24,049 bases of DNA from a virus, in IMG/VR virus record IMGVR_UViG_3300021964_000525, positions 1 to 24,049 of that record; one strand, given 5' to 3'. Made by a program: the position numbers and the translations under genes. Within the stretch, counting starts at the first letter, position 1. Each line of letters begins with the position of its first letter. This document shows positions 5,079 to 10,381 of the stretch, one piece after another. Under the pieces are notes generated by a model, which made no database searches, was not told the origin of the DNA, and was given only the letters and a program-made list of their open reading frames with translations.

Positions 5079-5492
5079 CTAATTGTCCTTGTAATCGGGT
5101 ACCTGGAATAGGTCTATTCCCTCGTCCAGCAGTTGGTTTGTTTCTTCCTTGGTCGCTTTACCATAAAACTTCTGATCACGTTTGCCCTTAGCGGCCTTCC
5201 TTGCCTCCTTGGCGAAGTTCTTACCAACGTCCTGGAAGTCTTTCTTTATCTTCTTGTTCAACTTACGCAGGATGGATTCCGCACTCTCGCCCATTACCAT
5301 GTAGTCATCTGGTTCGCCCTTGGGTTTTGACAGTTTTACACTGGGAGCCATGATGGCCTTGTCAACGGCGGTGCTGTCACACATGGGACACTGTATCATG
5401 CCCTTGTTCTTTTGTTTGGTGTAGTCCTTACTGCTGGGGAACCAACCTTCGAACTCATACTTACATCTGCATCTCAGTTGGTATTTGATCAT
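5079..5492 (-). CDS. DUF1178 family protein with zinc-ribbon-like N-terminus
   Basis: A 137-residue protein from ATG 5492. It matches the bacterial DUF1178 pattern over its length: MIKYQLRC start, FEGWF at 14-18, CPMCDST at 35-41, KAIMAP at 45-50, and a C-terminal VGKNFAKEARK...FYGKAT.EE..L..EGID.F.VP. DUF1178 is, from family knowledge, mainly proteobacterial and of unknown function. The first metal knuckle is odd: C8-R-C10 followed by KY where bacterial members have a Gly-His. The frame is open upstream to 5600, but 5492 is chosen because the family starts MI(K/R)Y and TAAATA lies 5 bases ahead. Probable acquisition from a host. Confidence 0.8.
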   Translation of the reverse strand: MIKYQLRCRCKYEFEGWFPSSKDYTKQKNKGMIQCPMCDSTAVDKAIMAPSVKLSKPKGEPDDYMVMGESAESILRKLNKKIKKDFQDVGKNFAKEARKAAKGKRDQKFYGKATKEETNQLLDEGIDLFQVPDYKDN

Positions 5493-5497
5493 AATAT

Positions 5498-5503
5498 TAT
5501 TTA
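5498..5503 (-). promoter_or_regulatory. TAAATA late-type element before the DUF1178 gene
   Basis: TAAATA on the minus strand ends 5 bases before ATG 5492. No Shine-Dalgarno is present. Confidence 0.5.
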
Positions 5504-5548
5504 CATTATACACTTGACAGATGAAACTGTCTACTATATTATTAAAAT

Positions 5549-5689
5549 ATGAGAATAGGCGCAACTGGATATACACCAGGTAGACCCAAGAAGACTTCAC
5601 AGGGCAAGAACAAGAGCAGGATCAAACTGAGCTCTATGAACAAGCACAAGAAGAGGAGTTTCAAGGCTTATGCAGGACAGGGAAAGTAA
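5549..5689 (+). CDS. Small basic conserved phage protein (46 residues)
   Basis: ATG 5549 to TAA 5687-5689. The product starts MRIGATGYTPGRPKKTSQG and continues lysine-rich to KAYAGQGK. This GxTG(Y/W)..GRP..S.QG...KKxxxGQG layout is one I recall from many marine T4-like phages; function unknown, possibly nucleic-acid binding. It lies on the plus strand opposite the upstream side of the DUF1178 gene and overlaps the next gene by 20 bases. Confidence 0.7.
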   Translation: MRIGATGYTPGRPKKTSQGKNKSRIKLSSMNKHKKRSFKAYAGQGK

Positions 5690-6246: not shown

Positions 6247-6272
6247 ATAAAGTATATAGTGCAACAGATAAC

Positions 6273-6293
6273 TACAACATATAAACTGTTGTA
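6273..6293. repeat. 7-base inverted repeat in the divergent gap before tctA
   Basis: TACAACA (6273-6279) and TGTTGTA (6287-6293) are perfect inverted arms around a 7-base AT-rich spacer, in the gap between the divergent gene starting at 6246 and tctA at 6340. It may be an operator or weak hairpin. Confidence 0.5.
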
Positions 6294-6339
6294 ACGCTCC
6301 CAGAGAAGTTCACAGCATAAATCCCCAAAATAAAACTAT

Positions 6340-7776
6340 ATGGAACTTGCTATACTAATGGCGGGTATTGTTTACGGCTTGATCATCGGCCTAATACCAG
6401 CCGCGGGAGCGACGACAGGACTGATCACACTATTTGGATTCATGCCCTACTTCGTGGGCGACCCCTACCTGGGCGTGATATTCTGTGTGGCAGTAGTTGC
6501 CTCATCAACAACCGGTGATTCATTCAGTGGTGTGCTACTTGGCATACCCGGAGCCAACTCTGCGGCCGCAACCATGGTGGATGGTTTCCCCATGGCCAAG
6601 CGCGGTGAGGCCACCCGTGCCTTATCGGCCGCTATAACATCAAGCACGGCAAACGGATTGTTCTGGGGATCACTGACTTTCCTGTTCCTACCATACTACA
6701 CCAAGGTTGTGATGTACATGGGCATACCGGAACTGTGGGCACTGGTCGTGTTGGCGTTCGTCACCGTGGGATTCCTCTCAACTAAGAAATACGTGAGAAG
6801 TGTCCTGGCGATCGTGCTTGGCATCACGCTGGGATTAGTGGGAGTGGATGCCAACAACGTGCCTCGCTTGACGATGGGATGGAGATATCTAGAGGATGGC
6901 ATCCAGATACTTCCTTTCGTGGCGGGACTGTTTGCGATACCAGAGCTCTGGGACGGATGGTTCAACAGGAAGAAGACTACCACTATACACACAGGCAAGG
7001 GCAGTTTACAGGATCTGTCGCAGGGCATCCGGGACACTGTGAGATGTTGGCGTGACAGCATACGAGGGGGTGCCATAGGTTCTTTCATAGGACTGCTACC
7101 TGGACTGGGTGGTGCGATGGCGGACTGGTTGGCCTACGGAGCCACCGTGGCTTCAAACCCCAAAGAGAAATTTGGTGATGGAAATGTAAAAGGAATTGTT
7201 GGAGCGGAGGGTGCCAACAACGCACAGAAGGCCTCCAGTTTCATACCCACCGTTCTGTTTGGTATACCAGGGGCACCATTCGCCGCGATCCTGATGGGAC
7301 TGTTCCTGTACTTGGGCATTGATTTGGGATCACCCGACACATTCTACGATGAGCAACTGTTCGACAGCATGACATTCGCTTTCCTGGCTGGCACTGTGTT
7401 GACCGCTGTCATCTGTTATGGTCTGGCCTACTTCGCTGGATGGGTCACACGTGTGCCTTACATCTACTACTTCCCCTTCATCCTGGCAGTGATCATCTGG
7501 GCCACCTTACAGTACACTGGTGGTTGGGAGGACCTGGCCACACTGACGGCATTCTCCGTACTGGGGGTGCTGTGTAAGAAATTCCAAGTCAGCAGGCCAG
7601 CACTGCTGATCGGATACCTGCTGAGTGACAGGATCTACAATCTCACTTATCAACTAATATCCTTGCATACATTTAATGATTTAATTACCAGACCTATCTT
7701 TATTTTTTTGATGTTCTGTGTTATACTATTATTGTATTGGGGTATAACAAAAAGGAGTCGAATAGACTATGCTTAA
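6340..7776 (+). CDS. tctA: TctA-family large membrane subunit of a tripartite tricarboxylate transporter
   Basis: A 478-residue polytopic membrane protein with the duplicated TctA layout. First half: GLIPAAGATTG near residues 17-27 and the signature GDSFSGVLLGIPGANSAAAT followed by DGFPMAKRGEATRALS. Second half: FIGLLPGLGGAMADWLAYGA, a GADGN..GIVGAEGANNAQKASS-type loop, then FIPTVLFGIPGAPFAAILMG. Family members move citrate or other carboxylates across the inner membrane using an ion gradient, with a periplasmic TctC receptor and small TctB. It is a little shorter than bacterial TctA (about 500) and lacks the usual extra N-terminal residues. Codon usage turns sharply AT-rich in the last ~40 codons. 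It overlaps tctC by 8 bases. No tctB is visible nearby. No clear ribosome binding site; first ATG used. Confidence 0.9.
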   Translation: MELAILMAGIVYGLIIGLIPAAGATTGLITLFGFMPYFVGDPYLGVIFCVAVVASSTTGDSFSGVLLGIPGANSAAATMVDGFPMAKRGEATRALSAAITSSTANGLFWGSLTFLFLPYYTKVVMYMGIPELWALVVLAFVTVGFLSTKKYVRSVLAIVLGITLGLVGVDANNVPRLTMGWRYLEDGIQILPFVAGLFAIPELWDGWFNRKKTTTIHTGKGSLQDLSQGIRDTVRCWRDSIRGGAIGSFIGLLPGLGGAMADWLAYGATVASNPKEKFGDGNVKGIVGAEGANNAQKASSFIPTVLFGIPGAPFAAILMGLFLYLGIDLGSPDTFYDEQLFDSMTFAFLAGTVLTAVICYGLAYFAGWVTRVPYIYYFPFILAVIIWATLQYTGGWEDLATLTAFSVLGVLCKKFQVSRPALLIGYLLSDRIYNLTYQLISLHTFNDLITRPIFIFLMFCVILLLYWGITKRSRIDYA

Positions 7777-8815
7777 GAAAACGATAATGGCTTTGGTGTT
7801 AATGACAACCACTGCCTTGGCCGACTACAACTTGATCGTGCCACAAAAACCATCTGGTGGTACTTCTGTGTGGGCACAGATAGTTGTGGCCGAATGGGAG
7901 AAACACCTAGGTGAGCAGATCAATCTCATATACAAGCCAGGTGCCAGGGACCAACTGGGACCAAACGAGTTCCAGAACACACTGAGGTTCGATGACCGGA
8001 CCATACTGGTATCACACGGAGGAAACGGAATATCATATCTTGTTGAACCTGTTGATTACAATTACTTAGATTGGGAATCAATCGGACAAATGAACTTGAA
8101 CATCATTGTAGGTGCAAGGAATAAAGCCGATACTAAGAATGGTCCTATAAAATTTCCGTCAGGCTCCGGTATGACGCCAGAGGTAATGGCCATAGTCATG
8201 TTACTGACAGGACCAAATGGTGATCCCATAAAAACTTTCGAGGACAAAGTTGTATGGGTAAAAGGAATGAAAGGATCAGAGAGACGACTTGCATTCATCA
8301 GAGGTGATCTAAACGCAACTAGAGAAAACCCCGCGGCGTACAAGAAACACGTGATGCCGGTAATTGAAAAAGGTGACGCCTACACTTGGTTCCATCATGG
8401 ACTCCTTGATGTCAACACGGGTAAACACAGCGAAGATCCAAACTTTACAGAACCAACTTTTGAAGCATTATTTGAACAGATGCATGGTGTTGCTCCAAGT
8501 GGTGACTTCTATGATGCCTACAAACTAGTCAAGAGTTGGAGAGACGCACTTCAGAAGGCGTTCTGGGTGAACAAGGGAAATCCAAACAAAGACAAACTCG
8601 TCGCCGCACTTGACAAGATGATCAACGATCCAGAGTCTGTTGCCGCAATCGAAAAGAAAGTTGGCAAGTACGAATGGAGAACGGGTCAACAGGGCGACGA
8701 TGCCGTAAGAACACTAAAGACTTTTATCACTCCAAAGTCCTTAAAAACTTTGGCAGATTTCAAAAGTAAGCAGTTGGGTTACAATACTGTCTATAAGGAA
8801 GAGTTGACAAAATAA
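7769..8815 (+). CDS. tctC: TctC/Bug-type periplasmic solute receptor
   Basis: A 348-residue protein with a signal peptide (MLKKTIMALVLMTTTALA, cleavage likely after residue 18). The mature start (YNLIVPQKPSGGTSVWAQIV and HLGEQINLIYKPGA) matches the Bug/TctC family opening, where a GG(T/G) loop and PGA-type strand line the carboxylate pocket; the typical bacterial form is PGG.TD..AR....L...LG..V.V.N.PGA. The rest diverges from standard TctC, so the ligand is uncertain. AAGGAG at about 7750-7755 and an 8-base overlap with tctA show co-translation. With tctA it should supply a receptor and permease acting at the host inner membrane. Confidence 0.75.
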   Translation: MLKKTIMALVLMTTTALADYNLIVPQKPSGGTSVWAQIVVAEWEKHLGEQINLIYKPGARDQLGPNEFQNTLRFDDRTILVSHGGNGISYLVEPVDYNYLDWESIGQMNLNIIVGARNKADTKNGPIKFPSGSGMTPEVMAIVMLLTGPNGDPIKTFEDKVVWVKGMKGSERRLAFIRGDLNATRENPAAYKKHVMPVIEKGDAYTWFHHGLLDVNTGKHSEDPNFTEPTFEALFEQMHGVAPSGDFYDAYKLVKSWRDALQKAFWVNKGNPNKDKLVAALDKMINDPESVAAIEKKVGKYEWRTGQQGDDAVRTLKTFITPKSLKTLADFKSKQLGYNTVYKEELTK

Positions 8816-9384
8816 TGTATATCCTTCTCACTGGTGCTCCCGGATCAAAATGGAGCAGTGTGGCAGAAAGCCTAAGTCGGTCGCCAGACATAGACAAATC
8901 TGACAGCACCAGTGAGAGAGCATACAACAACGGAGAGGTCAAGCACAAGGGATCATATTTTGATCCCGGAATGGAATTTGAAAACGATAGGGAGAACTGG
9001 GACAAACCCTTCACAGGCACAGGACATAGAGTAATCAAATCACACACATTTGCACACAATCTGGATGAACTTGCAAGTCTTGGATATCCTATCGTAATGG
9101 TATATCGTAGCCACCTTGAATGTTATGATTGGTGGGTGCAGGCCGGAGGGTTTGATATAACCTACCCTAACTATGGCTACTACGAGAACCTAGATAAAAT
9201 GAAAACACACATACTGAAGCAAAACAGAGACATAAACAGATTTATTCTGGATAATCTCAAAAGGATTTGTTGCCCTGTTGACAACTTTGATCTTTGCAAT
9301 GTGCTTGGAATTAAAAAACCGCCACGTAGAGATGTCATACATAATTACGCGGACAGAGATACTAAAGTGTACGTGTACAAATGA
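8815..9384 (+). CDS. P-loop sulfotransferase-like protein
   Basis: A 189-residue protein. The N-terminal MYILLTGAPGSKWSS holds a P-loop-like turn (residues 7-15) as in the 5'-phosphosulfate loop of sulfotransferases or a kinase Walker A. Further conserved-looking pieces are YFDPGMEFE, VIKSHTFAHNLDE and YPIVMVYRSHLECYDWWVQ, the last at the position of the sulfotransferase 3'-phosphate RxxxxCxxW/S region. I recall near relatives in cyanophage-type myoviruses. The start overlaps the tctC stop (TAATG at 8813-8817) and the stop overlaps the next ATG. Substrate unknown; a kinase of the same fold is the alternative. Confidence 0.7.
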   Translation: MYILLTGAPGSKWSSVAESLSRSPDIDKSDSTSERAYNNGEVKHKGSYFDPGMEFENDRENWDKPFTGTGHRVIKSHTFAHNLDELASLGYPIVMVYRSHLECYDWWVQAGGFDITYPNYGYYENLDKMKTHILKQNRDINRFILDNLKRICCPVDNFDLCNVLGIKKPPRRDVIHNYADRDTKVYVYK

Positions 9385-10040
9385 ACAAAAAAATATTTGC
9401 AAAACTCTTGGGTCACAGCCAGAACGACCTTACGAAGATCACACAACCATGGATAAAGGAAACATTTGGTGTTGAAGTGGATCGTTGCGACACTTTAGAA
9501 GACTACTCAGAAGCAATAGACGAAGCCAGCCTCGAAAGGTACTTTTCAAAGTATTGGCACAACGACATGAAGAAATGGAAGTACTCTGGACTTGCATTGA
9601 TAGATGAGGTCAACAGCCTAAAGCCAAGAAAAGTTCTAGATGTCGGGTGTGGATATAATGAGTTCAAAGGAAAGATAGATAATCTCGTGGGCATTGATCC
9701 TTACAACGACAAGGCAGACCTAAAGGTCAGCACACTGCAATACAAAACGGATGAGAAATATGATGTTATATTGTGTCTTGGTTCGGTCAACTTTGGATCC
9801 AAAGACAATATCATCGCAGAAGTGGGCAGATGTGTAAATCTTCTAGCAGACGATGGCGTCATGTTTTTCCGTGTCAATCCTGGACTGTCACACGATAAGA
9901 CAGAAGCAGACTGGATTGAATTCTATGCATGGAATGTACCATTTATTATTGAACTGGCAGAAATGTATAAATTAAAGATTTTAGACATCAGAGACGATAC
10001 AAATCAACGCAAATATTTCATTTACCGCAAAACCAAGTAG
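9381..10040 (+). CDS. Class I SAM-dependent methyltransferase
   Basis: A 219-residue protein with the Rossmann methyltransferase motifs: motif I VLDVGCGYNEF (85-95), acidic motif II VGIDPYN (about 103-109), motif IV YDVILCLGSVNFGS (127-140) and a later strand pair (GVMFFRVNPG). An N-terminal helical region of about 80 residues may bind the substrate. The start overlaps the previous stop (ATGA at 9381-9384). Nothing shows the methyl acceptor; small-molecule or glycan methylation is as possible as protein. It belongs to the enzyme cluster with the sulfotransferase-like and amidinotransferase genes. Confidence 0.85.
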   Translation: MNKKIFAKLLGHSQNDLTKITQPWIKETFGVEVDRCDTLEDYSEAIDEASLERYFSKYWHNDMKKWKYSGLALIDEVNSLKPRKVLDVGCGYNEFKGKIDNLVGIDPYNDKADLKVSTLQYKTDEKYDVILCLGSVNFGSKDNIIAEVGRCVNLLADDGVMFFRVNPGLSHDKTEADWIEFYAWNVPFIIELAEMYKLKILDIRDDTNQRKYFIYRKTK

Positions 10041-10084: not shown

Positions 10085-10381
10085 ATGCAAAAACACACAA
10101 AAAGTTTACTGGAAGAATTGAGCTCTATGCCTCTAAAAAGAGACAAAGAAGAGGTGGTCGAGAGCCGTGCGTCACACATACTTGAGTCTGCAATAAGACT
10201 TATGACTTACATCAGAGAAAACTTTGATCAAGACACAGCATTCAAATTAGAAAAAAAATTTAATTCTGCTCTCAAGAACATGGACGCATCTAAATTTTCA
10301 AAGGGCGTCGCAAGGATCAAAGAAAACAAAGACATCAAACAAAACATCCTTAAGATAAAAGACGGCGATTACGAAGAGTAA
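10085..10381 (+). CDS. Conserved helical phage protein (98 residues)
   Basis: An all-helical, charged protein starting MQKHTKSLLEELSSMP, with VVESRASHILESAIRLMTYI and a basic C-terminal half (KFSKGVARIKEN). Proteins with the VESRASH/N element are, from memory, conserved in marine T4-like phages without a function. It separates the methyltransferase from the amidinotransferase and its TAA is 2 bases before the GTG of the next gene, so the two are likely co-transcribed. Confidence 0.7.
   Translation: MQKHTKSLLEELSSMPLKRDKEEVVESRASHILESAIRLMTYIRENFDQDTAFKLEKKFNSALKNMDASKFSKGVARIKENKDIKQNILKIKDGDYEE

Follow-up and report, generated by a model that had tools for sequence, protein, structure and literature searches.

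A two-part TctA/TctC-like transporter cassette with a candidate regulatory leader RNA in marine T4-like phages

Overview of the cassette

Comparative sequence analysis identifies a marine phage lineage with a widespread two-part transporter resembling the tripartite tricarboxylate transporters (TTT), in which a TctA permease is encoded together with a predicted receptor of the TctC fold. We consider it likely that this cassette constitutes a phage-encoded uptake module, consisting of TctA and its own receptor, expressed from a late-type promoter, operating without a phage TctB and preceded by a hairpin that is probably regulatory. Most of the nutrient-uptake genes known from viruses encode lone helper proteins. 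The lineage described here carries a permease together with its matching receptor; several divergent versions of the pair exist, located at dedicated sites and in most cases preceded by a conserved leader, and these phages thus seem to supply and control a small-molecule importer of their own. The window, namely the whole stretch of DNA that was analysed, is the entire IMG/VR virus record IMGVR_UViG_3300021964_000525 of 24,049 bases, itself a fragment of a genome (Table 1). A sequence-only reading of this DNA had drawn attention to the permease-receptor pair; the insertion site, a further transporter slot and the hairpin in the leader went unnoticed there.

Table 1. Features of the cassette and its borders in the window
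Feature	Coordinates	Strand	Basis
Left anchor of insertion site, 151-aa protein with two apparent membrane helices	5809..6264	-	Present with and without the cassette
Late-type promoter box GATAACTA (pattern NATAANTA)	6267..6274	+	Likeness to the T4 late promoter
Leader hairpin, 31 nt	6287..6317	+	Covariation; similar fold in relatives
TctA-type permease, 478 aa	6340..7776	+	PF01970 full-profile match; dN/dS 0.070
Predicted TctC/Bug-fold periplasmic receptor, 348 aa	7769..8815	+	Homology to receptors beside TctA-TctB fusions; AlphaFold model; dN/dS
Sulfotransferase-like gene (named by look only), usual third cassette gene	8815..9384	+	Follows the receptor in most relatives
Methyltransferase, usual last cassette gene	9381..10040	+	PF13489, E 8e-7; conserved order
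Right anchor of insertion site, 98-aa protein	10085..10381	+	Close to the left anchor in empty sites

The permease and its receptor

The permease aligns with PF01970 over 422 of the 423 profile positions (E 9e-93; 311.6 bits against a cut-off of 28.9), in agreement with the earlier claim of an intact protein, and it supplies the large TctA-family permease that belongs to a TTT system. A crude hydropathy count recovers 8 helices, against the roughly 12 expected of TctA. Its nearest cellular relatives are alphaproteobacterial TctA-TctB fusions with 33-37% identity, and the C-terminal end of the phage protein coincides with the junction at which these fused proteins continue into TctB. In the TctA tree the phage proteins from the insertion site (slot 1) form one clade and those from a second slot form another; long branches are present, and the placement of both clades among the cellular proteins is not settled by this tree.

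The receptor gene begins with a signal-peptide-like segment (residues 1-18) and overlaps the permease gene by 8 bases, both as previously stated, and the same overlap recurs in 40 of 42 distinct relatives. Its assignment to the TctC type, made in the sequence-only reading, fails at the level of profiles and stands on other grounds. Searches with the Pfam, NCBIfam and PHROG profiles gave no match, PF03401, the TctC/Bug profile by which a TTT receptor is recognised, gave none up to E 10, and the sole match among PDB sequences was a TctC-type protein at E 0.89. In cells, the receptor has its closest relatives in alphaproteobacterial proteins (27-29% identity, E ~1e-27) encoded beside TctA-TctB fusion genes (~640-700 aa), and three of the four tested do match PF03401. 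An AlphaFold model of the phage protein (pLDDT 80, pTM 0.82) retrieves from the PDB 14 best fold matches that are all TctC/Bug proteins (best E 1.5e-9); the TM-scores are moderate (0.5-0.6), as may result if the two lobes of the modelled receptor are set at different angles. Because the predicted fold and the intermediate homologues, not the profiles, support that placement, we group the receptor with the TctC/Bug type. With the exception of a phage contig in a Pelagibacter metagenome-assembled genome (MAG), the closest cellular receptor in 398 Pseudomonadota genomes shows 28% identity (E 4e-20).

The claim of function rather than decay is borne out by the constraint on both genes: among phage relatives the median dN/dS is 0.070 (TctA) and 0.065 (receptor), against a value of 0.039 in DUF6267, a core gene nearby. 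As genes of bona fide phage genomes with hallmark genes, kept by selection (dN/dS ~0.07), they are candidate viral auxiliary metabolic genes.

The insertion site and a second transporter slot

The receptor is encoded on 204 viral stretches, and the pair sought on other phage contigs was found there with its gene order usually kept, the cassette running TctA, receptor, sulfotransferase-like gene and methyltransferase. Neither Pfam nor PHROG profiles match the sulfotransferase-like protein, and the left anchor has no Pfam match. Through records reached via two neighbouring anchor genes we obtained 47 distinct fully spanned sites, comprising 29 empty sites, 12 occupied by a type I pair, 3 by a type II pair whose gene order is reversed, and one each with a truncated cassette, a sodium:solute symporter and other content; these counts are not population frequencies, since the fetches were similarity-ranked. 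The anchors lie 54-167 bp apart in 24 of the 29 empty sites. From these comparisons the cassette appears to come and go at one fixed position in the genome, which is often cleanly vacant. The site can hold divergent TctA/receptor pairs, and the type I cassette is also found in other genomic contexts, two contexts having been seen. In the second of these a transporter gene of the Vut_1 family (PF02592), a family that includes queuosine-precursor transporters, lies 5' of the cassette (L007:2369-2977, L051, L095). A DUF1178 protein (PF06676, E 7e-40; window 5079-5600, minus strand) adjoins the insertion site in most relatives.

A sodium:solute symporter replaces the TctA pair at slot 1 in L441 (2471-3913, minus strand) and L241 (2148-3593, minus strand), and partial copies are present in L376 and L256. 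It shows weak likeness to the urea symporter DUR3 and to other symporters; the DUR3-type likeness is too weak to name a substrate, and this assignment was dropped. The cassette is dispensable, given that three contigs, representing two distinct deletions, have lost its middle. In these (L128, L130/L258, L131/L259) the N-terminal part of TctA is fused into the methyltransferase gene and the leader hairpin is kept.

Outside the window record, a 117-aa gene marks a second slot, and of its 29 loci (L278-L306) 7 contain other TctA/receptor pairs. The receptors among them match no family profile, and the one that was modelled again finds TctC/Bug proteins as its best PDB matches. Alternative occupants of this slot are a receptor alone (L286, L294, L303) or 2OG-Fe(II)-oxygenase-like and PP-loop-like genes.

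A late-promoter-like box and the leader hairpin

In T4 the late promoter reads TATAAATA. Of 60 distinct leaders, 51 have a box of the pattern NATAANTA beginning 24-25 nt 5' of the hairpin core, as against 3.9% in shuffles. The cassette would accordingly be read from a phage late-type promoter, presumably at a late stage of infection. Boxes of the form ATAANTA also stand just 5' of same-strand genes at window positions 2114, 2551, 15137, 17791, 18899 and 20875, which suggests T4-type late promoters across the region.

In the window the hairpin comprises an outer stem TGTTGT/ACAGCA, a bulged C at 6311, an AAC/GTT helix and an inner TC/GA stem; it differs from the canonical form, TGTTGT-AAC-GCTC-loop-GA-A-GTT-C-ACAACA, by a G for A in the outer stem. 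The exact pattern has 77 matches in 2.9 million viral contigs. With the window included (n=78), the first recognised gene on the 3' side is TctA or the receptor in 60 cases, the methyltransferase of a truncated cassette in 2 and the symporter in 1; of the 15 with no recognised gene, 3 are chance matches inside other sequence and most others visibly extend to where a TctA gene begins or to where the available sequence stops. Of the type I or Ib leaders, 44 of 49 carry the canonical hairpin, as do 8 of 11 of type II; the 6 second-slot leaders all lack it. Two symporter loci have readable upstream DNA, and the hairpin is present in L441 and not in L241. A divergent version, with both stems altered and the AAC/GUU helix, the bulged C and the single A kept, precedes TctA in 4 contigs.

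Both-sided changes occur in 4 of the 11 base pairs and 98.7% of cells are paired, values reached by none of 500 shuffles; the test is inflated because the sequences are related, and several of the both-sided changes derive from one sequence, L430, with a replaced outer stem. By its covariation and fixed position the element qualifies as a conserved structure in the 5' leader of the kind seen in riboswitches, and we regard it as a candidate cis-regulatory RNA that would act at the start of the cassette message and probably regulate the cassette. None of the 4227 curated Rfam models matches it at the gathering score, matches at E up to 10 being of chance level and away from the hairpin, and 288 alphaproteobacterial genomes contain no convincing copy (best match E 0.015). 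A role as a flanking recombination repeat was rejected, there being a single strong copy per long record.

As to the mode of action, we lean towards an element that binds a protein or affects mRNA stability, or one that acts as a DNA site, over a ligand-sensing RNA. The element is short and near the likely transcript start, and no general expression platform is obvious: an intrinsic terminator follows it in L430 and L449 only, where it may serve the upstream gene. Against this stand the occurrence of one strong copy per long record, before transporter cassettes only, and the combination of invariant bulge and internal-loop letters with a variable outer stem; these features fit a riboswitch or a protein site alike. 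Tentatively, the hairpin could represent a new class of small, metabolite-sensing riboswitch, so far phage-only, that controls both TctA/TctC and sodium:solute symporter transporters, the link to two unrelated transporter families coming from one contig. Were it such a candidate regulatory RNA, its ligand could name the imported nutrient.

Proposed transport, with or without TctB

Characterised systems of the TctA family normally include TctB. The TctB profile PF07331 has no match in 13 long relatives; it likewise fails to detect TctB where this is fused to TctA, and for this reason two further profiles were built, with 19 fused and 20 free TctB sequences as input. These found none in 10,791 viral ORFs and did match the bacterial sequences from which they were made, a control that is not independent, the profiles having been tested on their own source sequences. 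The searches cover genome fragments, and an unrecognised or distant TctB could lie elsewhere in the genome. Within the reach of these profiles, the absence of a recognisable TctB is common to the entire phage clade, in line with what had been claimed for the window, and we do not class the cassette as a full TTT because TctB was sought and not found. The upstream 151-aa two-helix protein was considered as a TctB substitute and ruled out, as it occurs where the cassette is absent.

We propose that TctA and the receptor would supply the infected cell with a small solute that is probably carboxylate-like, and that either the two proteins suffice or a host TctB is used. The latter option, in which the phage proteins join the small subunit of the host to form a full tripartite transporter, is conceivable and, in our estimate, doubtful. 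TctB is a usual component of the TTT family (PMC5812351), TctA is present in 85 of 147 SAR11-family genomes, and the free-standing loci that were read also have TctB-sized neighbours. However, the nearest cellular relatives of the phage permease are fusions whose TctB cannot be lent as a free subunit, and every phage TctA lineage seen, including the unrelated second-slot ones, comes without TctB. TctA systems possibly working without TctB bear on the role of this accessory subunit.

The pair might instead be non-nutritional, an altered transporter or receptor serving to block superinfection or, with the neighbouring transferases, to shift surface chemistry. The sulfotransferase-like, methyltransferase and UDP-sugar dehydrogenase genes nearby are compatible with such a role, but permease and receptor stay paired across several divergent lineages and gene orders, and a symporter can occupy the same site. 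The kept pairing and the symporter replacement make solute import the simpler account, and we judge a non-nutritional role improbable. Contamination, a host-phage chimera or decaying passenger genes, as might be suspected of a metagenomic contig that has no close cultured-phage relative and a copy binned in a Pelagibacter MAG, are refuted by the recurrence of the receptor on more than 200 viral stretches in two genomic contexts, by long records that also bear hallmark phage genes and by the strong dN/dS constraint.

Relation to known systems

The solute-import module shares with the TctCBA, BctCBA and TphC-type systems a PF01970 permease encoded together with a TctC/Bug-fold receptor. It differs from them in that no TctB was found with the pair, its receptor is beyond the reach of PF03401, and it is phage-borne, at insertion sites, with a leader hairpin. 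The alphaproteobacterial fused TctA-TctB systems, whose receptors measure 370-400 aa, are the nearest cellular relatives of both phage proteins; in contrast to them, the phage TctA stops where TctB would start, and the type I order is TctA followed by the receptor.

Passing mentions of tctA or tricarboxylate transport, with no analysis attached, exist for a SUP05 virus contig (PMC4164917; repeated in a review, PMC6359870) and an oxygen-minimum-zone myovirus contig (PMC8115048); going by their descriptions, these are set apart from the present cassette by the lack of a receptor, site, distribution or regulation. A pelagimyophage survey mentions substrate transport genes without naming them (PMC7029224). 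The glutamine (glnA) riboswitches of marine phages, Melnitz and Mosig among them (PMC9004378), likewise are structured RNA elements in marine T4-like phages, but their gene context is different (tmRNA) and the present hairpin lacks an Rfam match. In the accessible literature, supplementary tables and subscription papers aside, we met no account of this pair, its site or its hairpin. The most novel part of this TTT-like two-part transporter cassette is its leader hairpin.

The phage and its host

T4-type portal, terminase, baseplate and capsid genes occur on long relatives of the window, on the same records, consistent with the T4-like genome proposed earlier; PF07068 (capsid) matched 1 of 14 records, which says little, the records being fragments. 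One portal and one DNA polymerase have their best cultured matches in Phosso and Atu_ph07 (469-kb and 490-kb phages), and the window's own exonuclease in 286-kb PA5oct-like phages. DUF6267 scores highest with the 147-kb T4-like Pelagibacter phage HTVC008M, and cyanophages make up most of its matches, and hence a jumbo T4-like genome is only likely for the window itself. The cassette phages as a group are probably giant bacteriophages.

Among cultured phages, 7 records match TctA at 26-31% identity, none of them close, and none match the receptor. One cassette-bearing phage contig (L133) is binned in a Pelagibacter MAG, which may be a host hint or mis-binning. SAR11 was not accepted as host on this basis, the bin being possibly wrong and the window having 44% GC. 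Two long relatives (L384:14336-15625, L389:15201-16496) also encode a ~430-aa protein that resembles, by eye only, a purine/uracil-type permease.
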